Positions 1 to 23,958 of a stretch of DNA of 37,182 nucleotides are shown piece by piece. The notes under the pieces were generated by a model. It was not told the DNA's origin and did not search any database. It saw nothing but the letters and a program-made list of their open reading frames with translations. A program made the position numbers and the translations under genes. Source of the stretch: a virus; the IMG/VR virus record IMGVR_UViG_3300048586_000848, positions 1 to 37,182 of that record; one strand, 5' to 3'. The stretch's first letter is position 1; each line of letters starts with the position of its first letter.

Positions 1-1188
1 ATGTCAGAAATTTTTAACTTTGTCGATAAAAGATTAATAGATATCAAGCCTCCAGACAAAGGACAGGTAATGTACAGAGATGAAAAAGAAAAAGGTTTAG
101 TTCTGAGAGTAAGCTACGGAGGTAAAAAAGTTTTTTATTTGTACAAAAGATTTGATGGTAGACCTCGCTTAATCAAAATAGGTAATTTTCCTAAAATTTC
201 TATTACTGATGCTCGTATTGCGGTTCGTAATTTAAAAACAAAGATAGAAAAAGGAGAGTATAATACAAAAGTAAACTCTACTCAAAAAGGATTAACATTT
301 AAACAACTTCTTGATAAGTACCTAGACCAACATATTAAAATTAATTCACTAAATCCAGAAAGAAGTATTAAAACTATTCTGACTGAAATGAAAAATGTAA
401 CGCAGATTTATAACAAGTTAATATCTAGTATATCAAAGCAAGATATATTAGATATTTTTAATAAAATTACAGTCAGAGCTCCTATTCAGGCTAATAGAGT
501 GATTGTTAAGTTAACAGCAATATTTAATAAAGGAATTGAATGGGGGGTACTCGATCAAAATCCTGCTCAAGATATTAATAAGAATAAAGAAATACCTAGA
601 GATAGATATATTACTATAGAAGAAAAAGATAGATTCTTTCATGCGTTAACAGAATTAAAAAACCAAACAATGAAAGATATTTTTCTGTTATCTCTGTTTA
701 CTGGAGCTAGAAAGGGTAATATTGTATCTATGAGATGGGATAAGATTAGTTTTGAAAATAAAACTTGGAGTATACCAGCTAAAAGTAACATCCGTTCTCA
801 AGGTTCAAAGAATGGCAAATCAATTCTCGTGCATCTTAATCAAAATAGTATTGATATACTTTTAAAAAGAAAAGAGAATTCGCAATCAGAGTGGGTATTC
901 CCAAGTAAAAATAATAGCAAAAGCGGTCATGTAGAAGAACCCAGAAAGGCATGGATGGAGCTTTGTAAAAAAGCTAATTTAAAAGATATAAGAATACATG
1001 ACTTAAGACATACTCATGCTAGTTGGATGGCTATTAAAGGTGTAAGTTTACCTATTATAGGAAAAGCTCTTGGACATAGGAGTCTGCAATCTACAGCAAG
1101 ATATGCCCATTTGAATGATGATTCGGTAAAGGAAGCAGTAAATGGTACATTTAATGACATAAAAATAAATCCCAACAAAGAAAATTAA
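1..1188 (+). CDS. Tyrosine-type integrase with DUF4102 arm-binding domain
   Basis: This is a site-specific tyrosine recombinase of the P4/DUF4102 integrase class, which inserts and excises mobile DNA at an attachment site. The 395-aa length is normal and the gene is complete, with its ATG on the first base of the window. The N-terminal ~85 residues form the DUF4102 domain (the GGKKVFYLYKR...LIKIGNFPKIS pattern), followed by a SAM-like core-binding region at about 95-195. The catalytic domain shows R237 (TGARKGN), H333 and R336 (HDLRHTH), H359 (LGHRS) and the nucleophile Y368 (ARYAHL). All expected residues are present, so it is probably active. It sits at the left edge, which suits an element boundary just upstream. 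Whether it serves the island arm or the whole 36-kb region including the prophage cannot be decided here. Confidence 0.93.
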   Translation: MSEIFNFVDKRLIDIKPPDKGQVMYRDEKEKGLVLRVSYGGKKVFYLYKRFDGRPRLIKIGNFPKISITDARIAVRNLKTKIEKGEYNTKVNSTQKGLTFKQLLDKYLDQHIKINSLNPERSIKTILTEMKNVTQIYNKLISSISKQDILDIFNKITVRAPIQANRVIVKLTAIFNKGIEWGVLDQNPAQDINKNKEIPRDRYITIEEKDRFFHALTELKNQTMKDIFLLSLFTGARKGNIVSMRWDKISFENKTWSIPAKSNIRSQGSKNGKSILVHLNQNSIDILLKRKENSQSEWVFPSKNNSKSGHVEEPRKAWMELCKKANLKDIRIHDLRHTHASWMAIKGVSLPIIGKALGHRSLQSTARYAHLNDDSVKEAVNGTFNDIKINPNKEN

Positions 1189-1400: not shown

Positions 1401-2009
1401 ATGAAACAAGAAGAAACTCATAATCCAGAAACCAAGAAAATGCTACTTTCAGCAGCGATTTTTGAGACCTTTGGAGAACCATTTGCAAATTTATTGCATA
1501 ATGGCTGTACATTCATCCAACTAGAACCATACAAGATAGGGATTAAAACTAATGCAGATGTAACTCTTAACGATATTGAAAAAGCTAAAATACGAAAATG
1601 TATCAAATATGTTTATGGTGAGAATGTCAAGATTGTTACTGCTAATAATATAAAATCTATAACAACGGATGAATTTGGTAATAACAAAGATGGTAATCAA
1701 TTAGTAAGAGTTTTTAGAGCTAATTTGATGAAAGCGTTACTTGAAAAATATGAAGAAAAATATGCTCAGCATATTTTTAATAACTGGTTTGATAAACTAT
1801 GCTTAAGTAAGAAATCCAGCAATCATAAGCTGGTTCTAGTAGGGTCAACTTTTGTCCTTAATTGGATTGAGAGAGAATATTTAATATTCCTGGAAAAAGC
1901 TGCTATTCATAGTAATTTTCTAATTGAACTGCATTACCGGCATAACTTGGAGAGACCGATTGTATTTTCAAAAAAGACAATAGTAACCAAGATAGCAGTT
2001 AAGAGTTAG
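1401..2009 (+). CDS. DnaA N-terminal-domain-like replication protein
   Basis: The 202-aa protein has a C-terminal half (about residues 105-185) resembling the DnaA N-terminal domain. It carries the spaced pattern of a helical segment, an F-x2-W-F stretch, then hydrophobic strands ending in a W-I-E-R-E-Y segment. In DnaA this domain recruits helicase and other partners. There is no AAA+ ATPase module and no C-terminal DNA-binding domain, so it cannot be a full initiator. Proteins with isolated DnaA_N-like domains are known on Rickettsia plasmids and RAGEs. A hairpin cluster lies immediately upstream, and a small gene plus a RepA-like ATPase follow, which suggests a plasmid-like replication or regulatory module. 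The N-terminal ~95 residues are not recognised. Confidence 0.6.
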   Translation: MKQEETHNPETKKMLLSAAIFETFGEPFANLLHNGCTFIQLEPYKIGIKTNADVTLNDIEKAKIRKCIKYVYGENVKIVTANNIKSITTDEFGNNKDGNQLVRVFRANLMKALLEKYEEKYAQHIFNNWFDKLCLSKKSSNHKLVLVGSTFVLNWIEREYLIFLEKAAIHSNFLIELHYRHNLERPIVFSKKTIVTKIAVKS

Positions 2010-2081: not shown

Positions 2082-2333
2082 ATGATAAATCCTATAAGAC
2101 AGTTAATCACTCTTTCATACGAGTATATCAATCCTGACAATTTATTTGTGATACATAAAAACCATCCTATTGCTACAAGGGACGATATTTTAGAGTTGTA
2201 TCAGCGGAGAAGGTTTTTTATATCAAAGTTTAGGACTCACCTTACCAGCGTTGCCGAATTAATGGAAGAAATTGAATATTGTAATTGTCAGTTAAAAAGA
2301 ACTCTCGAAAAAGAATCTGCTAGAAACAAGTAA
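2082..2333 (+). CDS. Small hypothetical protein coupled to RepA-like ATPase
   Basis: An 83-aa, basic and mostly helical protein with no recognised domain. Its stop codon overlaps the next start in a TAATG arrangement at 2331-2335, so it is probably translated together with the RepA-like ATPase. That coupling is the main support for it being a real gene. A contribution to the same replication or DNA-transaction module is inferred from position only. Confidence 0.5.
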   Translation: MINPIRQLITLSYEYINPDNLFVIHKNHPIATRDDILELYQRRRFFISKFRTHLTSVAELMEEIEYCNCQLKRTLEKESARNK

Positions 2334-3268
2334 TGGCTTTAAAAACAGAACCTATCAATATACAGGATGACTACCTAGTTCTTCCTTTAGAAAAACGTTT
2401 GCAATACAATTTTCCTAAAAGAAACTTGATATTATCTCCGTGGCTTACGGAAAGCTCTTTGAACATGATATATTCTTGGCGAGGAGTAGGAAAAACACAT
2501 GTAGCACTGGGTATAGCCTATGCGGTAGCTAGTGGCGGTAGTTTTTTAAACTGGAAAGCCGATCAACCGCAAGCAGTGTTGTATATTGATGGCGAAATGC
2601 CTGGAGATGTTTTAAACGAAAGACTAGAAAAAATACAGCTTTCAAATCAGGATATATGTCCATCGAATAGTTTATGGATATTTGGATGCGATCCGTACTT
2701 GAAAGAAATGCCTGATCTTGCCACAGAGGAAGGGCAAAAAATAGTTGATAAATATATTTTACCTCAAACAAAACTGATTATCATAGATAACCTCTCATGT
2801 TTAGTGCGAAGCGGCGGAAAAGAAAATGAAGCGGAAAGCTGGAGAGAGGTTAGCGGTTGGGCATTACAAAAAAGAGCACAAGGTAAAAGTATAATATTTA
2901 TTCACCATTCAGGCAAAGATGGGTCACAAAGAGGCACATCAAAAAGAGAAGATATACTGGATGTAGTAATTACCTTAAAAAAACCGCACGATTATGAACC
3001 GACTCAAGGAGCTAGGTTTGAAGTCCATTTTGAAAAAGCACGTCACTTACACGGCGATTGCGTAAAACCATTTATTGTAACTTTAGAACAAAAAGAAGAT
3101 AATTATAAGTGGAACACTGTAACTTTAAACGAATCCAATAAGCAGAAAATTATTACCTGCTACCTAGAAGGGATGCGAAGCAGTGAAATAGCAAAAGATT
3201 TAGGTATTTCAAGGCAAGCGGTACACAAACACTTGAAGAAAATCAAAGAAGAAAAATTGATTGAATAG
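2333..3268 (+). CDS. RepA-like AAA ATPase with C-terminal helix-turn-helix
   Basis: A 311-aa P-loop NTPase of the AAA_25/RepA-RegA type, a RecA-fold hexameric helicase-like group common on plasmids and phages. Walker A is SWRGVGKT at residues 48-55. An acidic IDGE motif follows at 85-88 (YIDGEMP), Walker B is LIIIDN at 148-153, and a sensor-like FIHHSGK stretch lies near 190-200. The last ~38 residues form a helix-turn-helix (SEIAKDLGISRQAVHKHL). It is probably a DNA-dependent ATPase for replication or maintenance of the mobile element. It follows the 83-aa gene with a 1-nt overlap, and the DnaA-like gene lies upstream. Partner and substrate are not known. Confidence 0.82.
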   Translation: MALKTEPINIQDDYLVLPLEKRLQYNFPKRNLILSPWLTESSLNMIYSWRGVGKTHVALGIAYAVASGGSFLNWKADQPQAVLYIDGEMPGDVLNERLEKIQLSNQDICPSNSLWIFGCDPYLKEMPDLATEEGQKIVDKYILPQTKLIIIDNLSCLVRSGGKENEAESWREVSGWALQKRAQGKSIIFIHHSGKDGSQRGTSKREDILDVVITLKKPHDYEPTQGARFEVHFEKARHLHGDCVKPFIVTLEQKEDNYKWNTVTLNESNKQKIITCYLEGMRSSEIAKDLGISRQAVHKHLKKIKEEKLIE

Positions 3269-3395
3269 TGAATAGTTCAGGAGTTCCGCACTTAGCGTTT
3301 TTAAGTTTAATTCATCATATTTTGTCATACCTATCATAATTATAAAAGGAATTTCTAGATTTTGAATAATTTCTTTTTAGTTAGTTTTGTTAGAT

Positions 3396-4235
3396 TCAAG
3401 TTTTTTGTTTTTGACTTCCCTCATGTCGTGAGAGGGTTTTTTTAATATATGTAAAAACTTCTTTTTTCGCTAGTAATTGTATTTTTTCTTCTTTTTTTAT
3501 AACACTTGTATATATTTTATCTAAATTATCAATTATTTCTGATTTTAGATGATAACTTAAATCTTGTGATTCAATCAAGAACATATCAGTATTACGACCG
3601 ACTCCGGGAGCAATTTCTGATCTCTTTTTAGCGTTGTGTATTAACAATAAAGCATCAGAAAAGCTAAAATAAGGAGTATATTTATCTAGCATAAGTTGAG
3701 AATTTGCATGTCTTGCACCACTACCAATTGCAACAAATCCTATTTGGTTATAGCATATTGATCTTTCATTATTTATAACATACAATTGGGTGCCGTGTTT
3801 ATCTATTCCTGTTATTATAACAGAAACGTTAGAAAGTTGTCTTTTGAAATTGTATTTGTCTTGAATTATCGATTCAACTACTGGTTTAGAAAGCGAATTT
3901 TGGGTTTTGAGGAATGTTTTATAATTCAGTCCCCAAGTTGCAAATACAGCGTCATCTAATTTTTGTAAAATTAGCCTATTACGGCAATTTATATACTCAT
4001 CCACAATATCTTTAACAAGCCAATTATTTTTATTTCCTCTATTTTTTATTTCATTTTCTAGCATTAATAAAATTTCTGTCGATAAAGTAGCATCGCCTGA
4101 AGTCATAATAGCTATTGATTTAGTAATACCAAAGAATTTTTGTGAAGACTCAAACGTAATATCCCCAGAAGTTTTTAATCTATCAGAAGCTCCAATTATA
4201 CCGCTTCCACATATAGCAGCAATGCAAACTGTCAA
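3396..4235 (-). CDS. Proteasome/HslV-type Ntn hydrolase, stand-alone
   Basis: The protein resembles the beta-subunit fold of proteasomes and HslV. Counting Thr of the MTVCIAAI start as residue 1, it shows T1, D17 (GASDR), K32 (SSQKFF, equivalent to K33) and an SGD turn at 45-47. Further on come the exact HslV-like AIGSG motif (about 168-172) and a GVGRNTDMFLI segment like the HslV GG-x-IDVAVI region. The pattern predicts an active N-terminal threonine hydrolase. The TTG at 4235 has an AGGA ribosome-binding site 7 nt upstream and lets Met removal expose Thr. The longer frame from the TTG at 4307 begins inside a promoter -35 box. At 278 residues after Met it is about 100 longer than HslV. No HslU-like unfoldase is adjacent. 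The natural substrate is unknown. Confidence 0.75.
   Translation of the reverse strand: MTVCIAAICGSGIIGASDRLKTSGDITFESSQKFFGITKSIAIMTSGDATLSTEILLMLENEIKNRGNKNNWLVKDIVDEYINCRNRLILQKLDDAVFATWGLNYKTFLKTQNSLSKPVVESIIQDKYNFKRQLSNVSVIITGIDKHGTQLYVINNERSICYNQIGFVAIGSGARHANSQLMLDKYTPYFSFSDALLLIHNAKKRSEIAPGVGRNTDMFLIESQDLSYHLKSEIIDNLDKIYTSVIKKEEKIQLLAKKEVFTYIKKTLSRHEGSQKQKT
3418..3443 (+). terminator. Putative intrinsic terminator (CCCTC/GAGGG stem plus T7)
   Basis: CCCTC pairs with GAGGG around a short loop at 3418-3436 and is followed by seven T on the plus strand. It would end transcription from the RepA-like gene. It lies inside the last codons of the minus-strand Ntn hydrolase gene, so that protein's extreme C-terminus (RHEGSQKQKT) is encoded by the terminator DNA and may be a run-on tail. 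Confidence 0.5.
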
Positions 4236-4277
4236 TCCTATATCCTGCTCAGCTTTTGTAAAAAGTATACATGAAAT

Positions 4278-4307: not shown

Positions 4308-4478
4308 GGGGCAATTATTTAAACTTATTAACCGCTAAGTGATGGTTTCCACCAATTATAACTGTCTCCAATAGTCCGCTCTTAAATATTATCTGCAAAA
4401 ACAGTGCCAACTCCTCTGTACTCCTGCTAATTACAGTGGTAGCAGTGGATTGCGTTAATTAATTTATAGGTAAAATTT

Positions 4479-4709: not shown

Positions 4710-4822
4710 ATGCTAACACATAACACTTTTTGACCTCTTTAAGCAAGAATATCGTAAGTTAGGCAACCTTAAATTTAAAAAAGTTATTGCATTATATTAT
4801 TTTTAATAATAGCTTTTTTTAT

Positions 4823-6124
4823 ATGGTAGATAAAAAAAGTGTAGTGATGACAGTAGTTGCAGATCAGACCCAAAAAAGCCTTACCAGAGAACAGAAAGAA
4901 GCAGTTGGTTTATTATCTATAGGCACGTTTTTAGAGTATTTTGACCTTATGCTGTTTGTTCATATGGCAGTACTTCTTAACGAGTTATTTTTCCCTAAAA
5001 CTGACCCTTTTACTTCTTCTTTACTTGCTGCATTTGCGTTTTGTTCTACATACTTGTTGAGGCCTGTTGGAGCTTTAATATTTGGATATATTGGTGATAA
5101 CATAGGGCGTAAACATACAGTTATAATTACAACATTGATGATGTCTGGTTCTTGTGTAGTTATGTCAGTGCTCCCGACCTATGCTGAAATAGGTATAACA
5201 GCTTCGTATACTATTATAATTTGTAGAATTATACAAGGTATGTCTAGTATGGGGGAAATTATTGGAGCACAAGTATATCTGACTGAGATAGTTAAGCGTC
5301 CTATACAATACGCTGCCGTTTCTTTTGCATCAAATTTTAGTACTGTAGGTTCGATGGCAGCTTTAGGAGTTGCAAGTTTAGCCACTTCATCGATTACTTC
5401 TTTTAATTGGCGTTTTGCTTTTTTAATTGGTGCAGGTATAGCTCTTATTGGGTCATATGCAAGAAAAGCGCTTAGAGAAACCCCAGAATTTGCCGATGCA
5501 AGGAAAAGATTAATTTTAACTAAACAACACAATCATTATAAGGATATTAATATAAAATCTATTCTAGCTTACTTTGCTATAGAATGTGCCTATCCTGTCT
5601 GGTTTTATATAGCATATGTGTATCTTGGACAAGTACTAAAAGATAAATTTGCACTTACACCTCACCAAGTTATCACAAATAATCTATATGTTTCAATAAT
5701 AGGATCTCTCAGTTGTTTTATTATTGTTTATATAGTACGTACTGTACATCCATTTAAAATATTGAATGTAAAGCTAATTATATCATTTATACTAGGATTA
5801 GTATTTTTATTATTGGATTCGATGAATTCTCCTGTACAAATCATGGTTTTCCAAATGTGCATTATTGTATTTAAAACTAGTAGCTTTCCGGCCATGTCTG
5901 TTTTTTTTAAACATTTTCCTACATTACATCGTTTTAAATGTAGCAGTATGGTTTATGCAATGTCACGTACAGTAATGTCTGTGATTACTACATTTGGTAT
6001 AATATACTTAGTAAGGGATTATAGCTATCCTGGAATCTGTATTATATTGTTTCCAATACTGATCGGGTACGCTATTGGTCTTAATTATTTTCAAAAGTTG
6101 GAGAAGGCAGATTATAATCGTTAA
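4823..6124 (+). CDS. MFS transporter, ProP-like metabolite:proton symporter family
   Basis: A 433-aa membrane protein of the major facilitator superfamily, MHS/ProP-like branch, in the inner membrane. About twelve hydrophobic helices are visible. The family loop signature GYIGDNIGRKHT lies between TM2 and TM3, and the first helix contains GTFLEYFDLMLF, typical of ProP-like carriers. Multiple ProP paralogues are known cargo of Rickettsiales genomes and RAGEs, where they are thought to import host solutes. The ATG at 4823 is preferred over an upstream in-frame TTG at 4787, and another ATG lies at 4847; no strong ribosome-binding site decides. The 3' end overlaps the convergent HD hydrolase gene by 44 nt. 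The length is normal, so it looks intact. Confidence 0.88.
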   Translation: MVDKKSVVMTVVADQTQKSLTREQKEAVGLLSIGTFLEYFDLMLFVHMAVLLNELFFPKTDPFTSSLLAAFAFCSTYLLRPVGALIFGYIGDNIGRKHTVIITTLMMSGSCVVMSVLPTYAEIGITASYTIIICRIIQGMSSMGEIIGAQVYLTEIVKRPIQYAAVSFASNFSTVGSMAALGVASLATSSITSFNWRFAFLIGAGIALIGSYARKALRETPEFADARKRLILTKQHNHYKDINIKSILAYFAIECAYPVWFYIAYVYLGQVLKDKFALTPHQVITNNLYVSIIGSLSCFIIVYIVRTVHPFKILNVKLIISFILGLVFLLLDSMNSPVQIMVFQMCIIVFKTSSFPAMSVFFKHFPTLHRFKCSSMVYAMSRTVMSVITTFGIIYLVRDYSYPGICIILFPILIGYAIGLNYFQKLEKADYNR

Positions 6125-6758
6125 AAGATAAAAATCGGTGATACTTTTTATAATAAAAATTATAATCCTGTTTATTAGCTATAATTTTATATGAACCCAT
6201 ATAAATACATTCTTCTAAATTTATGTCATCAAATTCAGTAGATATGATTGCCACATGTCTTAAAGTTTCTTCAGCTATATCTTTCTGCTTTTCAATTTTC
6301 ATGCTTTCTATAGTTTGAATATTATGCAACCTATCAATTAATTTAATTAATAACACTTCCCTGTCTTTATGCTTATAAGCATTTTCTAAAATTTGCTCTA
6401 CACTTAACTTGGTACCATTAGGTCTATCACGGGTAAGTCTGTCAACCATTTCAGCTATTCTCTGCCCAAAAGTACTTTGTATCATTTCTACAGTAACCTC
6501 GGTATCTTCGACAATATCATGTAATATACTAGCGGCTATTACGTCAGTTTTTAAATTATAACCAGATACCATATAAGCTACCTCTAGGGGGTGAGAATAG
6601 TATGGCTCACCGCTTTTCCTTTTTTGGTTACCATGATATTTCCTAGCCCAATAGATAGCTTTGTTAATTAACTCAAAGTCTAGTGCATTTTGAGTATCTA
6701 ACGACTTCAATTTTTCTATTAATCTGATTGAATAATTACAAGGTACTGAATAATCCAT
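6081..6758 (-). CDS. RelA/SpoT-type HD-domain alarmone hydrolase (stand-alone)
   Basis: A 225-aa HD-superfamily phosphohydrolase matching the hydrolase domain of RelA/SpoT enzymes, which removes pyrophosphate from (p)ppGpp. It shows the RKSGEPYYSHPLEVA motif with H56, the metal-binding HDIVED at 80-85 and KLIDRLHN at 139-146 with D142. Metal ligands and the ED pair are all present. There is no synthetase, TGS or ACT domain, so it is a small alarmone hydrolase or a SpoT fragment. Such split SpoT proteins are established cargo of Rickettsiales mobile elements. It is divergent from a Panacea gene across a 199-nt spacer and convergent with the ProP-like gene. The C-terminal ~50 residues are less conserved. 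Confidence 0.88.
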   Translation of the reverse strand: MDYSVPCNYSIRLIEKLKSLDTQNALDFELINKAIYWARKYHGNQKRKSGEPYYSHPLEVAYMVSGYNLKTDVIAASILHDIVEDTEVTVEMIQSTFGQRIAEMVDRLTRDRPNGTKLSVEQILENAYKHKDREVLLIKLIDRLHNIQTIESMKIEKQKDIAEETLRHVAIISTEFDDINLEECIYMGSYKIIANKQDYNFYYKKYHRFLSFNDYNLPSPTFENN

Positions 6759-6957: not shown

Positions 6958-7449
6958 ATGAATAAAGTAACAGCACATGATGTTGCTAAGTACATAATTG
7001 CCGAGTTTCATGAAGCAGAGGATTTTATCACTAATATGAAAGTTCAAAAACTTTTATATTATGTTCAAGGGTGGTATTTAGGTTCATATGGAGCACCAGT
7101 ATTCGATGAGCAATTTCAAGCTTGGGTTCATGGGCCGGTACAATATGAAGTGTATAATGAGTATAAAAATTATCGTTGGAATCCAATTTCAGAACCTATA
7201 GAGAAATCAGAATTTGAACCTGCATTAATAAAGCACATTCACGAAGTCCTGCATGCTTACGGCGGAGAAACCGGATATATGTTAGAGATACTCACTCATC
7301 AGGAGTGGCCATGGATAGAAGCCAGAGATGATTTAGCATCGGATGCCTTATCTCAAAATATTATTTCTATTAAAACCATGAAAGAATTTTTTGCTGAAAA
7401 AGCTAAAAATAATGAAAGAACCGGTAATTTTATTAAAATTAGAAGGTAA
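6958..7449 (+). CDS. Panacea-domain (DUF4065) protein, antitoxin-like
   Basis: A 163-aa protein of the Panacea/DUF4065 (SocA, GepA-like) family. Diagnostic segments are ITNMKVQKLLYYVQGWYL near residues 24-41, then FDEQFQAWVHGPVQYEVYNEYK near 51-72. In characterised systems the Panacea domain is an antitoxin that directly neutralises diverse toxins, including toxic small alarmone synthetases, and SocA is a proteolytic adaptor antitoxin. Here no obvious toxin is adjacent. The divergent neighbour is an alarmone hydrolase and the convergent neighbour is a tiny ribbon-helix-helix protein. The start is secure because of the AGGAGG site 6 nt upstream. Antitoxin activity is inferred from the family. 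Confidence 0.82.
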   Translation: MNKVTAHDVAKYIIAEFHEAEDFITNMKVQKLLYYVQGWYLGSYGAPVFDEQFQAWVHGPVQYEVYNEYKNYRWNPISEPIEKSEFEPALIKHIHEVLHAYGGETGYMLEILTHQEWPWIEARDDLASDALSQNIISIKTMKEFFAEKAKNNERTGNFIKIRR

Positions 7450-10751: not shown

Positions 10752-11204
10752 ATGGTACAGACATCATATTTAAAAATCCTTGACGGAATCGGTGAAGATA
10801 GTCGTGCATTTTTCGGTAGTAAAAAACGAATAAAAGAATTTCTAGATTTAGTTTCTAATTGCGGTTCTGTAGCACTAGCTAGCAGTAAATGGGGATTATC
10901 GCCTTTGGAAGTACAGGAAGTGATCAGGAATGATACTGTTTTACAGAATTTAATTAGCCTTAGCATGAAGTTAGCCCTGGAAATTGCAGAAGGCGTGTTA
11001 TATGAGCGTGCCGTTAACGGTTATACTGAGGAAACTATTGTTGACGGGGTTAAGACGGGAGAAAAGAAGAAATATAGCGATAGCTGTCTGCTTAGTTATT
11101 TAAAAGCCAATTCCGGTAAATATAGCACTGCAAGAATTAGTGTCGGTAACAGGTCAAGTGATTTAGGACAAGGTTATGATATCGAGATACCTGATTTTGA
11201 GTAA
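10752..11204 (+). CDS. Phage terminase small subunit
   Basis: A 150-aa protein matching the small terminase subunit layout, which recognises the packaging site on phage DNA. The N-terminal ~60 residues are helical with a possible helix-turn-helix. Then comes the characteristic ALEIAEGVLYERAVNG segment, a turn rich in Gly/Asp/Lys, and YSDSCLLSYLKANSGKYS (around residues 115-132), a pattern widely seen in this family. The gene precedes the large terminase by 80 nt. The ATG at 10752 has no obvious ribosome-binding site. Confidence 0.82.
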   Translation: MVQTSYLKILDGIGEDSRAFFGSKKRIKEFLDLVSNCGSVALASSKWGLSPLEVQEVIRNDTVLQNLISLSMKLALEIAEGVLYERAVNGYTEETIVDGVKTGEKKKYSDSCLLSYLKANSGKYSTARISVGNRSSDLGQGYDIEIPDFE

Positions 11205-11284
11205 TTAGAGCTTTGTTTTTGCACCACCGGATGAACGCTGTGTGTTATTCTATTGATAATTTAAAGCTTTAGTTAGTAATTCAG

Positions 11285-12667
11285 GTGAAGAAACTACCCA
11301 AAATTAAATTTCCATGCAACTGGAGGCCTTATCCGTTTCAGGTAAAATTATGGAATTATTTACTTAGCGGCGGCAAGCAAGCCGTAGCAGTATGGCATAG
11401 ACGCTCAGGAAAAGATTTAGTCGGCCTGCATTGGATTACTTTATGTGCGCTGCGTAATCCGGGACTTTACTGGTATGTATTTCCAACCTTTGAACAGGCA
11501 AAACTTGCCATTTGGGATGCAGTAACCCTAGACGGCCGTAGTTATCTGTCGTTTATACCAAAAGATATGATAGCTAAAGTTGATAACGGTAATTTAACCA
11601 TAAGATTTAAAGGCGGCAGTATCATTAAATTTGTCGGTTGTCATACACCGGATAATTTAAGGGGCGCAGGAATTAAAGGTGTAGTAGTTAGTGAATATGC
11701 TGAAATCAATAAACCGGAAGCTATAGCCTCGGTATTAGTACCGATGCTGATTCGCTCGGGCGGATGGGTCTTATATTTATATACGCCAAGTAGCGATAGC
11801 TCTAAAACCCACGGCTATGATCTATATAAAAAGTTAGAGGAAGAAGAAGGTGCTTTTGCCCAGATTTTAAATATTGAGCAAACCGCCGACCATGAGGGTA
11901 ACCCACTGATAAAAGATACGGAATTAAAGGCAAGCGGTTTATCGGCGCAGCAAATAAGGCGGGAGTTCTATTGTGATTTTGATGCCGGAAGATTAAAACG
12001 GGAAGAAACAACTTTCGGTAGGCAACTGCAGCTAGCACAAAGCGAGGGTAGAATTACTCATATCCCTTATGATTCAGCTTTACTTGTTAATACTTACTGG
12101 GATGTTGGAGTTGTTGATTATACGGTTATCTGGTTTGTGCAGGAAAAAACCGAGTATTTAGACGTTATTGACTGCCATATTTCACGGGGTAAGGATTTCT
12201 ATTTCCTGTTAACGGAATTGAAAAATAAAGGTTATAAATACGGCAGGAATGTGCTACCCCACGATATGGGCAGGCGGCAACCGCCTAAGTTGGATACAAG
12301 GCTTAAACAGGCTAATGAAATAGCCGAAAAAATTGGATTTAATCCTTTTGTATTAGGGCGAATGTATCATAGGGAGGAAATGATCAGTAAAACACGGGAG
12401 CAGATTGGAAAATGTCGTTTTGATGCAAGTAAATGCGCCCAAGGGTTAAATTGCTTAGCTGATTTTGATGCAAGTAAAAGGAAGACCAACAGTAATTCAA
12501 CAATGATGACTGATGTTGCCGATAGTTTCATGTATATGGCTATGGATGCCGTAACCAAAAAAGAGCGGGAATTATTACAACCAAATTTTAATCGGAAATT
12601 ATTTAGCGTTATTGAAGAATATGACGCAACCAGCTCTGTTATTGATTATAATCCTTTTAAATATTAG
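11285..12667 (+). CDS. Phage terminase large subunit
   Basis: A 460-aa packaging motor with ATPase and nuclease domains. Walker A is WHRRSGKD at residues 37-44, Walker B ends at E138 in VVVSEYAE, and an SSDSSKTHG coupling-type stretch follows near 169-177. The RNase H-like nuclease shows three acidic residues: D273 (YWDVGVVD), D327 (LPHDMGRR) and D413 (VADSFMYM). All key residues are present, so the enzyme looks functional. The start is a GTG at 11285. The next gene begins 8 nt after the stop. The short length fits terminases of podoviruses and gene-transfer-like phages. Confidence 0.93.
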   Translation: MKKLPKIKFPCNWRPYPFQVKLWNYLLSGGKQAVAVWHRRSGKDLVGLHWITLCALRNPGLYWYVFPTFEQAKLAIWDAVTLDGRSYLSFIPKDMIAKVDNGNLTIRFKGGSIIKFVGCHTPDNLRGAGIKGVVVSEYAEINKPEAIASVLVPMLIRSGGWVLYLYTPSSDSSKTHGYDLYKKLEEEEGAFAQILNIEQTADHEGNPLIKDTELKASGLSAQQIRREFYCDFDAGRLKREETTFGRQLQLAQSEGRITHIPYDSALLVNTYWDVGVVDYTVIWFVQEKTEYLDVIDCHISRGKDFYFLLTELKNKGYKYGRNVLPHDMGRRQPPKLDTRLKQANEIAEKIGFNPFVLGRMYHREEMISKTREQIGKCRFDASKCAQGLNCLADFDASKRKTNSNSTMMTDVADSFMYMAMDAVTKKERELLQPNFNRKLFSVIEEYDATSSVIDYNPFKY

Positions 12668-12675
12668 GAGGGAAT

Positions 12676-14316
12676 ATGGGGTTTGGCAGATTTTTTAAAA
12701 ATCCTTTTAAAGCAACGGCAGCTGCTTTTGGCTTAAAGAAACAGTATAAAAGATTAACGGGAGAAGATCAGAAAGAGAAAGCACATGAAAGGTTGCGCTG
12801 GGCGCAGAATGCCTATAATGAGGCAGGAAGATTAAAGCAGGAATACGATAATTCCATCACCCCGCAAATTAAACAGCTAGAAGAAGCTTTTAATTCGGCA
12901 ATTCGCAGTCGTGCCAATTATGATTTAAAATTATCCGGTCAACAACTAAGTGCTCGTGAGCTGGAAAATATAATTAAAAGCAGAGAGCAGAAGTTAGAGC
13001 ATATAGGATCGGATATTGGAGCTAAAACTTCAGAATACGAATCTGCATTGGCTTATCATAAGGAAGAAGTAACAAAATTTCATGAACAGGGAACATCCTT
13101 GCAAGGTTTAGTTGATGTATTTAAAAAAGAATTACCGGATTTATCAAAGTCCATAGAAGAATATCAGAATTTGCCGCAGGAATTTTTAACCGGTTTTGAG
13201 CAGGCAAAGGAGAAGAGGTCTAAACTGGAAGGTTTTAGCCGAGAAGAAAGAGGAAAGGAAATTGACGAGTTTGAGGCAGGGGTTAATGAATTAAAGCAGA
13301 AACAAAGTGCCCTTGAGAAAGCCATCAAGGAGAAGTACGGCAGCTTATCGGCAAAACGTGAGGATTTACTGGGTAAACATACACAATTAACTTCTTCTTT
13401 AAAAGAATATAAAGACAGGCAGGATCAGTTAATTGCCAAGGAAGATATTTATAATCGCAAGCGCCATGAACTTGAGAATATAATTAGCGGTTACAGAGAA
13501 GAAGAAAATAAATATCGGGTTGAACTGGAAAAAGCAAAGAAAATAAAGGCTGATTACGATTTAAATGTTAAAGCGTATACGGAGAACGAAAACAGTATTA
13601 GCCGGTTACAGAAACAGGCAAAGGAGTATCAGAATATTACCGAAAACTATCAGAATCAAATCAATCATCAGTTAAGCCAGGGAGAAAAGTTTGAAGGCTG
13701 GGCTAAAGGTCATGCCAAGAAAGCCGGTAAAATCGCCGGCCTAAATTTAATCGGGGGTACGCTACTTGGAGGTTTGATAGGTTTTGGCGGCAATGGGCTC
13801 ATGGGAGGTCTTGCCGGAGGTATGCTTGGGGGTTTGGGCGGTCATTTAGCTAACAAAATATCCGGTCTGAATAAGAAGTTTCCTGCTATTAATGTTCCGG
13901 ATACCAATATCAATACAAGCCGCTACGAGGATTTACAGACTATTCTAGCAGGTAGAGCGGAAGATGGAAGAAAACTCGGTAAGAATGCTCCTATTTCTAG
14001 CGGCATGCTCGGCAATATCCCTAAAATCAACATACCCGAACTTGGGGGATGGCAAAGCCCTGCTCATTTTGGGCTCGACCAACTACCGGAGGTTCATAAA
14101 CTACCGACCATCGAGTCGGCACTCGGTAGATTAAAAGATCCAAAAGAATTAAATAATCTAACCCTAGGTTTGCCAAAAGTTACGGGACGAAGCGGTAAGG
14201 AGTATAATTTTGCGGTATTATATGATCCTATGTATATAACAAAATTTAAAAGTGTTATGAAGAAAGCACAAAAATATGGCGGTAATCTACTTGGTGGTAA
14301 TAAAGTTTATATATGA
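12676..14316 (+). CDS. Coiled-coil protein with glycine-rich hydrophobic segment (virion?)
   Basis: A 546-aa protein of unrecognised family. Residues about 30-340 are a long charged coiled coil. Residues about 350-395 are a glycine-zipper-like hydrophobic stretch (GGTLLGGLIGFGGN, GGLAGGMLGGLGG) able to insert in membranes. The last ~140 residues are Pro/Gly/Leu-rich and end in a lysine-rich segment. It lies between terminase and portal, with an AGGAGG-type site just upstream and an ATGA overlap with the portal gene, so it is co-translated with head genes. A structural or DNA-ejection role is inferred from position and the membrane-active segment. It is not a known terminase or portal partner. 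Confidence 0.6.
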   Translation: MGFGRFFKNPFKATAAAFGLKKQYKRLTGEDQKEKAHERLRWAQNAYNEAGRLKQEYDNSITPQIKQLEEAFNSAIRSRANYDLKLSGQQLSARELENIIKSREQKLEHIGSDIGAKTSEYESALAYHKEEVTKFHEQGTSLQGLVDVFKKELPDLSKSIEEYQNLPQEFLTGFEQAKEKRSKLEGFSREERGKEIDEFEAGVNELKQKQSALEKAIKEKYGSLSAKREDLLGKHTQLTSSLKEYKDRQDQLIAKEDIYNRKRHELENIISGYREEENKYRVELEKAKKIKADYDLNVKAYTENENSISRLQKQAKEYQNITENYQNQINHQLSQGEKFEGWAKGHAKKAGKIAGLNLIGGTLLGGLIGFGGNGLMGGLAGGMLGGLGGHLANKISGLNKKFPAINVPDTNINTSRYEDLQTILAGRAEDGRKLGKNAPISSGMLGNIPKINIPELGGWQSPAHFGLDQLPEVHKLPTIESALGRLKDPKELNNLTLGLPKVTGRSGKEYNFAVLYDPMYITKFKSVMKKAQKYGGNLLGGNKVYI

Positions 14317-15806
14317 TTAATCCTGAGCTGAACCTAATATTTGAGCATTTTGAAATATTAAAGGGCGAAAGAAACTCCTGGGAGTCATCACGAGCGGATA
14401 TCAAGAAATACGTTTGTCCGTCTTCTGAGAGAACCAGAGACGTATATGCAAGTATTCCAAGCTATGCAGCGGGAGTGCTAGCGAGTAATCTACAAAGTCT
14501 GCTAGTTAATCCTGCATCCAATTGGTTTTCTTTAACCCTGCCGCAAATAGAGGAAGATAAAGATACGCTTAAGTGGTGCCAACTGGTTACAAACAAGATA
14601 AACGAAGTATTTAACTGTCGGGCAACGAATTTTTACAGTCAGATTCATGAATTCTTTTTAACGTTGGCAACTTACGGGAGCGGAGTGTTTTATGTTGAGG
14701 AAGATCCAAAATTGCAGTTTTGCAGTTTTTTTCGGAATATTCCCCTCGATGAATGTTATTTTGAAGAAAACAGGCTTGGCTTTGTTGATAGTATATATCG
14801 TCAGTTTAAAATGGCTCTTAAGGTAGCAGCGAATGTCTGGGATAAGAATAGTAAACTGAAAGCAAAAGCAGAAAAGTTTCCCGATGAAAAAGTTACGATA
14901 TTACATGTAGTACGCCCTAAAGGTGATAGTAAGAATAAATCTTACGAATCATTGTATATTTTAATGGAAGATAAAGAAGTATTAAGCGAGTCCGGATATA
15001 ATTATTTTCCGTTTCTGGTTACTCGCTGGATAAAACATGAGGGAAGCGCTTACGGATATGCTCCGGCTCATCATGTGATGGCGGATATTAAACTGCTGAA
15101 TGAATACAGGATGCTTGGTATCAAGATCAAGCAGAAACAGGTTAATCCACCGCTACTTATTCCTCGGCAAGGGTATTTTCTACCTTTGAATATGGCACCG
15201 GGTCAAGTTAATCTTTATGAAAATGCCACTGCCGATAAAATAATTCCTCTGGCTAATCTGGAAAATATAGAATCAACGCTGGATGAACAGGAAAGATGCG
15301 AGATGGCTATTCGGGCGGCATTTTTTACCGATGTATTTCACTTACCGAAAGAAAACAAGGAAATGACGGCAAGTGAGGTAAGTATTCGTAGCGAGGAACA
15401 GATGCGGATGATGTCTCCTATTGTCGGAAGAATTGAGGCGGAATTGTTAGACCCTTTAATTCATAATGTTTTCAATATTCTGGTTAAATACAAACACATA
15501 GATATAGGAGGGATGAAAGAGCCGGCGATTGAAGCCCATTATATATCACCGCTTGCACGGGTACAAAGACTGGAATCGACACGTTCAATGGAAAACGTGC
15601 TTAGGTTTTTAGGAACTTGCGGGGCGGCAAACTTTGCACCGGAAGTTTATGATAATTTTAACTGGGACGAGGTTCTTAAATTATTTGCCAATTTGCATAA
15701 TTGTCCGCAAAGCATATTTAAAGACGAAGCGGAAGTTGCAAAAATCAGGCGTCTTAGAGAGCAGCAGCAACAATTAATGATCGGGCAACAAGGAGCAGGA
15801 AATTAA
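14313..15806 (+). CDS. Portal protein (T7 gp8-like head-to-tail connector)
   Basis: A 497-aa portal of the Head-tail_con family, the dodecameric ring at the capsid vertex through which DNA enters and leaves. Family hallmarks include an early ERNSWESSRADIKKYVCPS stretch, then AGVLASNLQSLLVNPASNWFSL near residues 50-71, and EDPKLQFCSFFRNIPLDECYFEENRLGFVDSIYRQFKM further on. The C-terminus carries a Gln-rich tail (RLREQQQQLMIGQQ), as in the T7 group. The start overlaps the previous gene by 4 nt and the stop overlaps the next start in TAATG, so it is tightly coupled within the head operon. Confidence 0.9.
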   Translation: MINPELNLIFEHFEILKGERNSWESSRADIKKYVCPSSERTRDVYASIPSYAAGVLASNLQSLLVNPASNWFSLTLPQIEEDKDTLKWCQLVTNKINEVFNCRATNFYSQIHEFFLTLATYGSGVFYVEEDPKLQFCSFFRNIPLDECYFEENRLGFVDSIYRQFKMALKVAANVWDKNSKLKAKAEKFPDEKVTILHVVRPKGDSKNKSYESLYILMEDKEVLSESGYNYFPFLVTRWIKHEGSAYGYAPAHHVMADIKLLNEYRMLGIKIKQKQVNPPLLIPRQGYFLPLNMAPGQVNLYENATADKIIPLANLENIESTLDEQERCEMAIRAAFFTDVFHLPKENKEMTASEVSIRSEEQMRMMSPIVGRIEAELLDPLIHNVFNILVKYKHIDIGGMKEPAIEAHYISPLARVQRLESTRSMENVLRFLGTCGAANFAPEVYDNFNWDEVLKLFANLHNCPQSIFKDEAEVAKIRRLREQQQQLMIGQQGAGN

Positions 15807-16090
15807 TGCAGATAGTTTTTAACAACTCCAAAAAAGAAAACATAAATTTTGAAACGTTAACTTCGTCGTATCGCAAGTTATTTTTAGGAACAAAAGAGGG
15901 AGAGATCATATTGAATGATTTATCACAAAAAGCTAGAATATTTATACCCTTAGGTAGTAGTAACTCTTCTGATTTATTGTATATTGAAGGTATGAGGGCA
16001 TTGTTTTTTTACATTGCTTCTTATTTAGAAGAAAAGCTAACTGAGGAAACTTGTATACAGGATTATGACCCATTTGAGAAGAAACACTAG
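15806..16090 (+). CDS. Bbp19-like small phage protein
   Basis: A 94-aa protein starting in a TAATG overlap with the portal stop. The pattern YRKLFLGTKEGEIILNDLSQKA followed by an EGMRALFFYIASYLEEKL helix resembles the Bbp19-like domain found in podoviruses related to Bordetella phage BPP-1, next to portal and capsid genes. Its role in those phages is not well defined. A part in head or tail assembly is plausible. Confidence 0.6.
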   Translation: MQIVFNNSKKENINFETLTSSYRKLFLGTKEGEIILNDLSQKARIFIPLGSSNSSDLLYIEGMRALFFYIASYLEEKLTEETCIQDYDPFEKKH

Positions 16091-16099
16091 GATAAAATT

Positions 16100-16951
16100 A
16101 TGACAGACAAGGAATTTAGCGAAAAAGAAAATTTGGCAATTTTTGAAGATTACAACATTCGTAGAATATATGATGAAAAAACCGAAACTTGGTTTTTTTC
16201 CGTAGTAGATGTGATTGCAGTCTTAACAGCGCAAAACAATTATAAGGTAGCACAAAGTTATTGGACTACACTTAAAAGTCGCTTAAAAAAAGAGGGCAGT
16301 GAGTCTGTCACAAATTGTGACAAACTGAAATTACAAGCCGCGGACGGTAAAAAGTATTTAACAGATGTTGCTAATGCAGAAACCTTATTAAGGTTAATTC
16401 AATCTATCCCTTCACCTAAGGCTGAACCTGTTAAGTTGTGGCTTGCTAAAGTAGGTTACGAGCGCATACAAGAGATTGCAGATCCGGAAAGATCAATGAA
16501 TAGGGCTAGGGAAAACTGGAAAAAGCATGGACGTAGTGAGCAATGGATACAGCAACGCATGCTTGGTCAAGAAACTCGTAATAAATTAACCGATTACTGG
16601 AAGGATCACGAAATTAAAGAAGGAGAGGAGTTTGCTACATTAACAAATATTATCCATGAAGAATGGGCAGGAGTAAGTATAAAGAAGCACAAACAAATTA
16701 AAGGTTTAAAAAATCATAATTTACGTGACCATATGAGCAATGCAGAGTTAATTTTCACGGCACTTGCCGAATTATCGACAAAACAGGTCGCTGAGAATCT
16801 TAACGCTACGGGGATGAAGGAAAATAAGAAAGCAGCTAAGGTAGGTGGTAATATTGCCAAGAATGCAAAATTGGAATTAGAAAGTAGAACCGGTCAAAAA
16901 GTAATTTCATCAGCTAATTACCTAAAGCCAATAAAGCAAATAAAGGAATAA
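16100..16951 (+). CDS. Bro-N family phage antirepressor-like protein (moron)
   Basis: A 283-aa protein. The N-terminal ~105 residues look like a Bro-N domain (YNIRRIYDEKTETWFFSVVDVIAVLT, then a region ending VANAETLLRLIQSIPSPKAE). The C-terminal half is the charged domain seen in DinD/BRO-type proteins (QRMLGQETRNKLTDYWK, NHNLRDHMSNAELIFTALAELST). Bro-N proteins bind DNA and often act as antirepressors. It sits within the virion operon between the Bbp19-like and scaffold genes, which separates genes that are usually close together, so it looks like an inserted moron. Spacing to neighbours is 9 nt and 3 nt, so it is still read with the operon. Confidence 0.78.
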   Translation: MTDKEFSEKENLAIFEDYNIRRIYDEKTETWFFSVVDVIAVLTAQNNYKVAQSYWTTLKSRLKKEGSESVTNCDKLKLQAADGKKYLTDVANAETLLRLIQSIPSPKAEPVKLWLAKVGYERIQEIADPERSMNRARENWKKHGRSEQWIQQRMLGQETRNKLTDYWKDHEIKEGEEFATLTNIIHEEWAGVSIKKHKQIKGLKNHNLRDHMSNAELIFTALAELSTKQVAENLNATGMKENKKAAKVGGNIAKNAKLELESRTGQKVISSANYLKPIKQIKE

Positions 16952-16954
16952 ACT

Positions 16955-17818
16955 ATGAGTGAAGATATTGTAGAGAATCTAAGTCAGGTTATAAATAACT
17001 CAGGCTCAAGCGGTACAGATAATAATGCAGTTGACTCTGGCTCAACTCTTACGTCAAATCAGAGCGACTGGTTACAAAGTTTACCCGAGGATATACGCAG
17101 TAGTAAATCACTGGCTAAATTTAACGACTTTCCTGCCCTTGCCAAGAGCTATCTGGAACTGGAGAAGAATCTGGACAAGAGAATCCTTATGCCGAGCGAG
17201 GAGGCAAGCGACGAAGAATGGAGCAAGGTATTTGCAAAGCTTGGGATGCCGGAGGATAAAAAATATATTGCCGATGAGAAAAAAGCCGAACTTCTAAAAA
17301 ACAATCTAGCGGATGAAGAGACGCTATTATTATATGAGGATTTATTCCACAAGGGGAATTTAACCCGCAGGCAGGGAGAAAAAATCCTAGAGCGGATAAT
17401 AGAGAATGCGCAAAATAGCAGTAAAGAGCTGATAGAAGCGAGGAAAACAGCAAGGGAAGCCAATTTGGCAAAATTTCAGGAAACATATAAGGAATCAACC
17501 TCCGAAAAGCTGAATATTTTAAAAGGCGTAATGTCCAGATACGGGAGTGCGGAATTAGTCGATTTAGTTGAAGAAACAAACTATGCACCGGTATTAATTG
17601 ACTTGTTATTAAAGCTTGGGGAAGGGATAAAGGGTGATTCACTGGTATCCGGTAAAAGCAATCCGTTAATATCCGATAAGGAAACTGCCAGAAAAGAGAT
17701 CAAGCGACTTGAATCTGACAAAGAGTTCATGGTAAAATATGCAGATAAAGGTCATGTAGGTCATAAGCAGGCAGTTAAAGAGCTTAATGATTTATATGAT
17801 ATAGCTTATAAAGAATAA
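16955..17818 (+). CDS. Capsid assembly scaffolding protein
   Basis: A 287-aa acidic, helical protein just before the capsid gene. It has a Ser/Asn-rich flexible N-terminus. Then comes the scaffold-family segment DWLQSLPEDIRSSKSLAKF, ALAKSYLELEKNLDKR, and EEWSKVFAKLGMPEDKKY at residues about 85-105. The C-terminal third is lysine-rich and helical, suited to binding the inner capsid surface. Position between portal and capsid genes fits. Antisense frames over this gene are shadows of its helical codons. Confidence 0.75.
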   Translation: MSEDIVENLSQVINNSGSSGTDNNAVDSGSTLTSNQSDWLQSLPEDIRSSKSLAKFNDFPALAKSYLELEKNLDKRILMPSEEASDEEWSKVFAKLGMPEDKKYIADEKKAELLKNNLADEETLLLYEDLFHKGNLTRRQGEKILERIIENAQNSSKELIEARKTAREANLAKFQETYKESTSEKLNILKGVMSRYGSAELVDLVEETNYAPVLIDLLLKLGEGIKGDSLVSGKSNPLISDKETARKEIKRLESDKEFMVKYADKGHVGHKQAVKELNDLYDIAYKE

Positions 17819-17989
17819 TCATTTCACATACCGAGCAATCGATAATATCACTGAAATTAAATTATTCCGATCAAGAGATAATCTATAAACCGGACCGAGA
17901 GGTAATCCGCACAAGTAGACCTTAAGAAAGCAAGCTGGAGATTATTGGTTTAATTTTTAGAAGATTTTTCTTAAAAACGGAGGATAGTT

Positions 17990-19291
17990 GTGCCATATAT
18001 AACCGAAGGTTTAAAACATCAATTTGCTACAAACATCGAGCTTGTTGCTCAGGAAAAAGGGAAACTAAGGAAACTGGTTCAGGAAGAGGAAATCGAGACT
18101 GAAGTAGCATATTTTGAGACTGCTTCAAATATTGAAGCTCTACCGAGAACCAGAACAGACCTAGGCGGCGCTCCCGGGGGGTACGGCACATATGTTGCCG
18201 ATCCTGCCAACCCTGCCCTTGCTGATACGGAACTGCGTTTTCCGCAAATTACCAGACGTCAGATCAATGCGGCAGCGTATTATTGGACTGCTACTATGGA
18301 CAGGAACGACAAAGCCAACTTACTTGCCGATCCGACTAGTAAATTTCCTCAAATGGCAGGTCTTGCCATGGCAAGGGCAATGGATAGAACAATTATAAAA
18401 TCCATAGGAAGTCCGGTCATGTCAGGATTAACGGGGACAACTGCCATCCCTTTTGATATGATAAATAACGTTGTACCTTTAGGGCTTCTTGCTAACGATG
18501 GAGCTACCTTAGGTTTTCATAACGATAACGGCTCGCAGAATTTTCAGCTTCTTCCAATCGGTGATGATGCCGATGCAGACCATGTAAGCGTAGCTAACCT
18601 GCAAAAAGCAAAACTAACGGTAGAGAAGCTGATTGCAGCAAGGCAGATGCTTAATCGCGGTACGTTTAACAGCGATAAAAAAATGTATTTTGTCTGTACT
18701 TCCCAGCAACTTACTGATTTGCTAGCGGATCACAGGATAATTAATGCCGACTATAACAGCGTAAAAGCCCTGGTTAACGGAGAGCTTAACAGTTTTATGG
18801 GATTTACATTCATCATCTCGGAATTACTTACCGGTATTGCCGGCCCAAGAAATGCTAATGATCCTGTAGTTGCCCATAGCTATTCAATAAGGGAGTGTTT
18901 TGCCTTTACTGAAGATGCGATCAGATTTGCAAGTGTAAAAGGAACAAGCATCACGAAAACGGATGAATTGCCGATGAAACACTATGCACCGATGTTATAT
19001 CATGGCAGTTCATTTGGAGCGGCAAGGGCATCTGAGGGAGGAGTAGTCATTATCAAGTGTCTTGAGCCGGCACGTCCTGACCACCACGGGGTTAACGGCT
19101 GGGTACAACCTATTGCTGCAGGCGATGATGCTGATCAAAGAACGGCAAGATTAACAAGAGCCAGTGTAGTCCCAAGCCATGCTACTACTTGGGCAACGAA
19201 TAGTTTTGATAATACGGGCGGACTTGCTCATTTTGGTAATGCCGGTCAGATTCAGGCTGCATTACTGGTTATAGCACAGAAAAGGCTATAG
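17990..19291 (+). CDS. Major capsid protein
   Basis: A 433-aa protein in the canonical place after the scaffold gene. It starts at a GTG with a GGAGG site about 9 nt upstream, as expected for a highly made protein. It resembles the HK97-fold capsid proteins of BPP-1-like podoviruses. The N-terminal helix region (ITEGLKHQFATNIELVAQ) leads into ITRRQINAAAYYWTATMDRND and a conserved MARAMDRTIIKSI helix. The C-terminal half has FTEDAIRFASVKG and a terminal strand-rich extension. No cleavage site or protease gene is evident. Assignment rests mainly on order and general resemblance. Confidence 0.8.
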   Translation: MPYITEGLKHQFATNIELVAQEKGKLRKLVQEEEIETEVAYFETASNIEALPRTRTDLGGAPGGYGTYVADPANPALADTELRFPQITRRQINAAAYYWTATMDRNDKANLLADPTSKFPQMAGLAMARAMDRTIIKSIGSPVMSGLTGTTAIPFDMINNVVPLGLLANDGATLGFHNDNGSQNFQLLPIGDDADADHVSVANLQKAKLTVEKLIAARQMLNRGTFNSDKKMYFVCTSQQLTDLLADHRIINADYNSVKALVNGELNSFMGFTFIISELLTGIAGPRNANDPVVAHSYSIRECFAFTEDAIRFASVKGTSITKTDELPMKHYAPMLYHGSSFGAARASEGGVVIIKCLEPARPDHHGVNGWVQPIAAGDDADQRTARLTRASVVPSHATTWATNSFDNTGGLAHFGNAGQIQAALLVIAQKRL

Positions 19292-19310
19292 AGGATAAGA
19301 TGAAACAATC

Positions 19311-19865
19311 ATGTTCATTCAGGAAAAGATCATCAAACAGGCAGTAGCGATACTGGGAGCTACGCAAAGTATTCAGAATGCAGGTAATAAACTCGATAAT
19401 GCCGAAAGAATATGCAGTGTATTTGTATCTTCGGCAATGGAAGAGGTATTTTTATCCGTTCTATGGAAAGATGCAGTGGAATTAATTCCTAAAACCGAAG
19501 GGAAAACGGATGAATTCATACAGGTAACGATTGATGACTGCATTAAGATCATCGGTATTACTCCTTCAAATATAGAATGGTACGTGGATAAAAATAAACT
19601 TTATTTTAAAGGGGAAAGTTTGGACGGCGGTTTTTACTATTCGAACCGGTTATTAAAAAAATTACAATCCAATATCGAAGTAGAACTGCCCAGCACCTTT
19701 CTTATTTTATGTAGTCTGTATCTGGCATCAAACGTAGCACATGCTTTATACTCGGATAGTATATTTACCGATGGAATGAAGAAGCAATATTTACAAAAAG
19801 TGGAAGAAGCAAGGAAGTTACACTTTTTTGATTACCATTTAGTTAATTCTGCACGGTTTGCCTGA
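19311..19865 (+). CDS. Tail adaptor (tail tubular protein A-like)
   Basis: A 184-aa helical protein between capsid and tail nozzle genes, the place of T7 gp11-like adaptors that form the ring under the portal. The features are those of this group: an N-terminal helix pair, a W-x-x-AVELIP strand, the hairpin WYVDKNKLYFKG, and a C-terminal LPSTFLILCSLYLASNVAHALYSD helix followed by EARKLHFFD. The ATG at 19311 is chosen because the ATG at 19300 opens another frame that stops quickly. Confidence 0.68.
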   Translation: MFIQEKIIKQAVAILGATQSIQNAGNKLDNAERICSVFVSSAMEEVFLSVLWKDAVELIPKTEGKTDEFIQVTIDDCIKIIGITPSNIEWYVDKNKLYFKGESLDGGFYYSNRLLKKLQSNIEVELPSTFLILCSLYLASNVAHALYSDSIFTDGMKKQYLQKVEEARKLHFFDYHLVNSARFA

Positions 19866-19867
19866 AA

Positions 19868-23899: not shown

Positions 23900-23958
23900 A
23901 GTTTTGGTATCTTTACTCCATGCGGTAAGATTATGTTATAATAAGAATAAGGTTTTTT

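Follow-up and report, generated by a model that had tools for sequence, protein, structure and literature searches.

We found that the window, a stretch of 37,182 nucleotides (positions 1 to 37,182 of the IMG/VR virus record IMGVR_UViG_3300048586_000848), carries a gene whose product is, as judged from its sequence and its structural model, a proteasome-type Ntn hydrolase, and that at least 8 of the 13 distinct loci of its family are passengers of IS1595- or IS1-type transposons or remnants of such units. The protein is a further lone proteasome-like homolog. Proteasome homologs without an unfoldase, some of them phage-borne, are a kind that has already been published (Fuchs, Alva & Lupas 2021, PMC8665760), and the window protein resembles these homologs (above all the PHI and PMI families) in its predicted Ntn fold, in T1, D17, K33, and G47, in having no AAA+ partner, and in being carried by a phage. 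The window gene is therefore a real accessory gene and not a new kind of system, although the first-pass annotation of this DNA had suspected an unfamiliar one. The transposon carriage of the relatives, in contrast, is a new observation that specialists would not have expected; it is established for the relatives and not for the window copy.

The gene (Table 1) is an open reading frame of 279 residues including fMet, found exactly where the first-pass annotation had placed it, and it is known from a single copy. Its product starts with fMet-Thr-Val-Cys, and every full-length homolog starts with the same Met-Thr-(Val/Leu)-Cys. A second in-frame TTG is located upstream at position 4307 and would make a protein of 303 residues. 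Because of the shared start of the full-length homologs and the AGGA ahead of the downstream TTG, we consider the longer form unlikely. Methionyl aminopeptidase cuts off a Met that precedes Thr, and, therefore, Thr2 is predicted to become the N-terminal nucleophile.

Table 1. Features of the Ntn hydrolase gene and of its surroundings in the window
Feature	Position	Strand	Evidence
Tyrosine integrase of the prophage	1..1188	+	Domain match; homologs in related prophages
DnaA N-domain protein, replication module	1401..2009	+	Domain match; homologs upstream of terS in related prophages
Replication-module ATPase (AAA_25/RepA-like) with HTH; no unfoldase	2333..3268	+	Domain match
Inverted repeat, left arm (weak, imperfect); candidate transposon-end remnant	3289..3310	+	Score in 0.58% of shuffles
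Proteasome-like Ntn hydrolase, TTG start	3396..4235	−	ORF, PF00227, AlphaFold2 model, Foldseek
Gly47 codon (oxyanion-hole Gly47)	4095..4097	−	14/16 homologs
Lys33 codon (Lys33, proteasome numbering)	4137..4139	−	16/16 homologs; aligned to Lys33 of 1j2q_H
Asp18 codon (Asp17, proteasome numbering)	4182..4184	−	15/16 homologs; aligned to residue 17 of 1j2q_H
Thr2 codon, predicted N-terminal nucleophile (Thr1 once Met is removed)	4230..4232	−	16/16 homologs
AGGA, Shine-Dalgarno-like, 7 nt ahead of TTG 4235	4243..4246	−	Sequence
Inverted repeat, right arm (weak, imperfect)	4319..4341	−	Score in 0.58% of shuffles
MFS transporter (ProP-like), accessory; start called mechanically	4787..6124	+	90% identical in Ca. 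Megaira
HD/SpoT-type hydrolase, accessory; partner of the MFS gene in Rickettsiales	6081..6758	−	Domain matches
SocA/Panacea-domain protein, accessory	6958..7449	+	Domain match
Phage packaging, head, tail, lysis, recombination genes	10752..35640	+	Profile matches

The window protein matches PF00227 of Pfam (35.7 bits against a gathering cut-off of 22.4, E = 8.8e−9), and its best NCBIfam matches, which score far under their equivalog cut-offs, are the beta and alpha subunits of archaeal proteasomes. Searched against the PDB, a profile of the family also retrieves proteasome alpha and beta subunits. An AlphaFold2 model built from a 16-sequence alignment (pLDDT 89.1, pTM 0.82) has the Ntn strand order and the alpha-beta-beta-alpha sandwich, and not some other fold; its best Foldseek matches in the PDB are alpha and beta subunits of the 20S proteasome (E ~1e−12, probability 1.00, TM to target ≤0.82). 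HslV, the type to which the first-pass annotation had assigned the protein, is absent from the best 60 PDB profile matches and from the best 50 Foldseek matches.

All of the motifs that had been reported for the protein (T1, D17, K32(33), SGD, and AIGSG) are present and in order: T1 is residue 2 of the reading frame, D17 is residue 18, K33 is residue 33 (K32 of the mature protein), SGD spans residues 46 to 48, and AIGSG spans residues 169 to 173. In phmmer alignments, D18, K33, and G47 fall on residues 17, 33, and 47 of the beta subunit of the A. fulgidus proteasome. Given the PF00227 score and the conservation of these positions among 16 aligned family members (Table 1), of which the others are only 19 to 36% identical to the window protein, the match at T, D, K, and G47 exceeds what chance would give in the aligned sequences. 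The fold match also implies that Thr1, Asp17, and Lys33 would lie together in the model. The AIGSG motif fared less well, since its Ser (the Ser129 position) is Ser in only 7 of 15 family members and is otherwise variable, and the motif is therefore partly a coincidence of the window copy. Unlike in the 20S subunits, neither Ser129 nor Ser169 is conserved in the family: the Ser169 position holds Ala, Ser, or Pro (mostly not Ser), and Asp166 is replaced by an invariant Glu207, with all three positions (129, 166, and 169) assigned from the sequence alignment rather than from a structural superposition. Since only some of the proteasome helper residues are retained, the enzyme could be a weak hydrolase or use another chemistry instead.

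The elements of the model follow each other in the order of the proteasome: S1 to S4, H1 (residues 49-66), H2 (74-96), extra helices (98-101, 105-114, and 117-134), S5 to S8, H3 (174-183), H4 (192-206), two further strands, and, at the C terminus, a helix of 43 residues (232-274). The roughly 100 residues by which the protein exceeds HslV, as noticed from the sequence, are accounted for in this layout by a helical insertion at the pore-loop position (98-134) together with the C-terminal helix. Both additions have counterparts among the published homologs (PMC8665760). A helical insertion following H1 and H2 is described for PHI, PMI-3, and PMI-4, and long C-terminal helices are described for Anbu, WPH, ACC, and some PHI; the window protein resembles each of these groups in the respective feature. 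An insertion between H3 and H4 characterizes PMI-2 to PMI-6, and PMI-4 has insertions at both sites. The window model has the insertion after H1 and H2 and lacks that between H3 and H4, which argues against PMI-2 to PMI-6. PHI proteins combine the H1/H2 insertion, no H3/H4 insertion, and, in some members, a C-terminal coiled coil (PMC8665760), and PHI fits the modeled architecture best when published cluster descriptions, rather than sequences, are compared.

The 20S alpha and beta subunits are the nearest matches of the window protein in both sequence profile and fold, but the window protein is longer, has extra helices, and is encoded without a partner subunit gene. It shares with HslV (ClpQ) the catalytic Thr-Asp-Lys and a bacterial setting but has no adjoining HslU, in addition to its greater length and the absence of HslV from its best profile matches. 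Like PPH and AAH, it is carried by a phage. However, PPH proteins have about 140 residues and no H2, whereas the window protein has 279 residues and an H2 at 74-96, and AAH, a group I protein, is compact and has no insertions, unlike the window protein.

There is no AAA+ unfoldase among the window ORFs and no adjoining hslU, in agreement with the first-pass annotation. The nearby AAA_25/RepA-like ATPase (2333-3268) is of a replication type, is convergent with the Ntn hydrolase gene, and belongs to a different fold class from the unfoldases. Similarly, a Walker-A scan (not a profile search) of the flanks of all family members (up to 5 kb, or shorter where a contig ended) yielded no credible AAA+ ATPase gene. 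The absence of a partner across the family is in line with the absence that has been published (PMC8665760).

To place the window in a genomic context, we note that the record contains integrase, terminase, portal, capsid, tail, and lysozyme genes, and that packaging, head, tail, lysis, methylase, and recombination genes extend from terS (10752) to DAM (36425). The window represents a podovirus-like prophage; other Rickettsiales have related ones, whose portal proteins are 47 to 49% identical to that of the window and whose gene order from terS on largely matches. These related prophages occur in three genomes (G234, G244, and G247; L198-L209), with several per genome in two of them. They also have a DnaA_N gene upstream of terS, and an integrase and DAM at the prophage ends. 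The accessory genes that they carry from DnaA_N to terS vary; among these genes are a toxin-antitoxin-like pair (RelE-like/HTH) and ORFs of a DUF1828-like type (names assigned by reading the sequences). The corresponding interval of the window contains the Ntn hydrolase gene, the MFS-HD pair, and the SocA/Panacea gene. Because this slot is variable in the related prophages, the Ntn hydrolase gene probably sits in a prophage accessory slot and not in the RAGE-type setting that had been supposed; conjugation (tra) genes were not recognized in a reading of the window's ORF list, and phage structural genes are present instead. The part of the first-pass annotation that saw a self-standing Ntn hydrolase carried as accessory cargo on mobile DNA is borne out by the intact reading frame, the predicted fold, and the prophage slot. 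Searches of the window for prophage att repeats and for structured RNA gave no convincing att repeat and no structured RNA. Pfam, PHROGs, NCBIfam, and PADLOC all gave nothing for a 291-aa ORF at 9568-10443.

The host, probably a Rickettsia-like symbiont, is likely to be Megaira-like: the MFS gene at 4787 and its counterpart in the Candidatus Megaira endosymbiont of Mesostigma viride have 90% identity, the DNA identity of the MFS-HD block is 87%, and the final gene of the window resembles the Rickettsia adhesin Adr. MFS-HD pairs are also found in ordinary chromosomal settings in Megaira, and the stretch with the Ntn hydrolase and MFS-HD genes could, as a residual alternative, be a host segment caught between two elements. 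A second IMG/VR contig (L002:1-5832) is 99.97% identical to window positions 10888-16719 and represents the same phage again.

No relatives of the window protein came up when phages, plasmids, GTDB species genomes, and IMG/VR were searched with its sequence alone. The family was opened with the degenerate start pattern MTVC(I/V)AA in IMG/VR, followed by an alignment-based scan. It comprises about 15 distinct proteins, all of which have MTVCxAA and the Lys33 region, while the clade of the window protein also has AKKR(S/A)EVAPGVG and mostly TDM. Two further start-pattern matches were set aside (L139, a very remote relative, and L141, not a relative), and L112 was rejected as a chance match. The family profile detects all 14 source records and found no true member in 301 Rickettsiales, 399 Pseudomonadota, and 318 Alphaproteobacteria genomes; the only match in the last set (L210) proved to be a chance match once its sequence was read. 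The family is rare and scattered in the sampled genomes, in a picture that is biased because a collection of viruses was the source of its members.

The family tree has two supported clades and does not resolve the order inside the first. Clade A includes the window protein, L161, L165, L162/L163, L164, L166, L167/L168, L169, and L170; clade B includes L118 (= L124 = L131), L130, L142, L150 (twice), and L171. In L166 and L167/L168, the Ntn hydrolase gene is located within modules of phage structural genes, near phage portal or major head proteins. The L167/L168 pair differs by 5 synonymous and 2 non-synonymous substitutions, which fits selection for function in a sample too small for proof. 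Several neighborhoods contain other genes: a DNA methylase with a fused nuclease domain of the Mrr type, encoded on the strand of the Ntn hydrolase gene and about 350 bp upstream (L169:1344-4025), a methylase ORF related to this one about 2.5 kb from the Ntn hydrolase gene (L164:1610-2872), and an ORF that by eye looks like AbiV (L170:2876-3430). At L150 (3762-5699), the Ntn hydrolase is present twice, as divergent copies in tandem next to the remnant of a transposase.

The loci counted as transposon passengers or remnants are L161, L165, L164, L118/124/131, L130, L142, L150, and L171. In L161, inverted repeats of 27 nt enclose the Ntn hydrolase gene and a convergent IS1595 transposase (PF12762, E = 7e−34), and a perfect 8-bp duplication, TTAACTAT, bounds this unit (7873-9981). 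The L165 unit (7900-10454) has the same arrangement, with inverted repeats that are 95% complementary and a perfect 8-bp duplication, TGGTTAAG. In clade B, a convergent IS1-type transposase or its remnant abuts the Ntn hydrolase gene at each locus. Local alignment did not pick up the inverted repeats of the IS1-type units, but a search for end motifs did: the units of L124 (1888-5524) and L171 (7415-10306) have ends GGTAGTGGGTCAGTTTG on both sides, and the L130 unit has a variant end, GGTAATGGACCAGTTTC, on both sides. One-sided ends were found at L150 (GGTAGTGGGTCAGTTTG) and at L164 of clade A (GGTAGTGTCTCAGTTTG). Target duplications were not found at the IS1-type units that bear the Ntn hydrolase gene. 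However, transposons of alphaproteobacterial plasmids (L172, L174, and L175) with the same ends and other cargo have perfect 8-bp duplications, which validates the IS1-type ends.

Transposons of an IS1-type family with ends GGTAGTG(GG/TC)TCAGTTTG (L124:1888-5524, L171:7415-10306, L172:793-4162, L174:1264-3897, and L175:555-4778) sit on plasmids of Alphaproteobacteria and on phage-like contigs, and their diverse cargo consists of the Ntn hydrolase, XRE/HTH proteins, and small histone-like ORFs. A RES-Xre toxin-antitoxin pair on the L174 plasmid was considered as a fellow passenger and rejected, as it lies outside the transposon ends. We found no prior report of a link between Ntn hydrolases and transposons in the literature, most subscription papers excepted. 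Fuchs et al. (PMC8665760) do not mention transposon carriage; they describe more than 20 uncharacterized families of lone proteasome homologs and saw no genomic context that hinted at a function. The L161 and L165 units with their 8-bp duplications provide such a hint, namely that the gene may be selected as a passenger on mobile DNA.

We propose, with moderate confidence, that the window gene encodes a stand-alone, unfoldase-free Ntn hydrolase with narrow substrates and is an accessory (moron) gene of a Rickettsiales prophage; a substrate-specific Thr hydrolase is our best guess at its activity. Removal of the initiator Met would expose Thr1, which, with Asp17 and Lys33, would form the catalytic center. 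The single-chain protein would combine the helical insertion at the pore-loop position with the long C-terminal helix, and these two additions make a small or open assembly likely, rather than a closed, unfoldase-fed barrel of the HslV kind. Acting without a dedicated AAA+ partner, the enzyme may be a specific protease or amidase on limited substrates, or it may have the alternative chemistry of a transpeptidase, as in connectase. Carried as a moron in the slot between replication and terminase genes, it would benefit the phage or the host.

A reasonable rival, which we nevertheless consider unlikely, is that the hydrolase helps the element that carries it in an anti-defense or addiction style, by cleaving a defense or toxin protein of the host, or else a protein of a phage. 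The presence of the family on unrelated mobile elements (prophages, IS1595-type, and IS1-type transposons), the RelE-like/HTH pair in the same slot of related prophages, and the methylase-nuclease or AbiV-like ORFs near the gene in three relatives are consistent, by association, with such a role. However, PADLOC gives no defense match for the Ntn hydrolase, no neighbor is common to the window and the other loci, and the plasmid RES-Xre pair is not part of its transposon.

Could the window copy itself be mobile? An imperfect inverted repeat of 22/23 nt, CACTTAGC(G)GTT..AAGTTTAA, brackets the gene, bounds a gene-sized interval (3289-3310/4319-4341), and is a weak candidate for a transposon-end remnant; the clade A members L161 and L165 are IS1595 passengers. 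A transposase-less cassette moved in trans by an IS1595-like transposase is, however, improbable: the repeat was noticed after the fact (P ~ 0.006), has no target duplication, and is unlike IS1595 or IS1 ends, and IS1595 transposases of Megaira-like genomes, considered as movers, were found in none of 16 such related genomes. In the window itself, there is no transposase and no IS1595-type end, and a single poor IS1-type match lies at 30.5 kb. Compared with the transposon units of its relatives (L161 and L165; L124, L130, and L171; remnants L150 and L164), the window copy lacks a transposase, ends of a matching kind, and a target duplication.

That the gene is a decayed or inactive relic is more doubtful still. 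Its identity of at most 36% to any relative found, its TTG start, and the AT-rich, decay-prone lineage of its intracellular host would suit a relic, but the full-length open frame, the three intact catalytic residues, and the confident model speak against one. Least probable of all is an HslV paralogue that forms a barrel and makes use of a housekeeping unfoldase, the host HslU or another one: the superfamily is shared and HslV-length PF00227 proteins are present in 37 of the 40 related genomes searched, but the sequence and predicted fold are closer to proteasome alpha and beta subunits, HslV has neither an insertion at the pore-loop site nor a long C-terminal helix (model; PMC8665760), and no hslU is nearby. 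Because the host group has its own HslV, the Ntn hydrolase gene is not a stand-in for it.

For the family as a whole, we tentatively conjecture that these are "passenger proteasomes," unfoldase-free enzymes spread by transposons and phages, which were repeatedly taken up as IS1595 and IS1 cargo that helps the element or protects the host cell, and of which the window copy settled in a Rickettsiales prophage; we see this as possible rather than probable. The transposon units with the Ntn hydrolase are small natural test units of about 2 to 3.6 kb, and the window adds a proteasome-type enzyme to the prophage accessory genes of an obligate intracellular bacterial lineage. Another lone PF00227 protein (252 aa, MTVVIGIYCSDG) is encoded at L113:4482-5662 adjoining a 142-aa winged-helix/PadR-like ORF; the pair is a possible two-gene unit, and the bacterial genome in which it is found contains an HslV-like gene as well.
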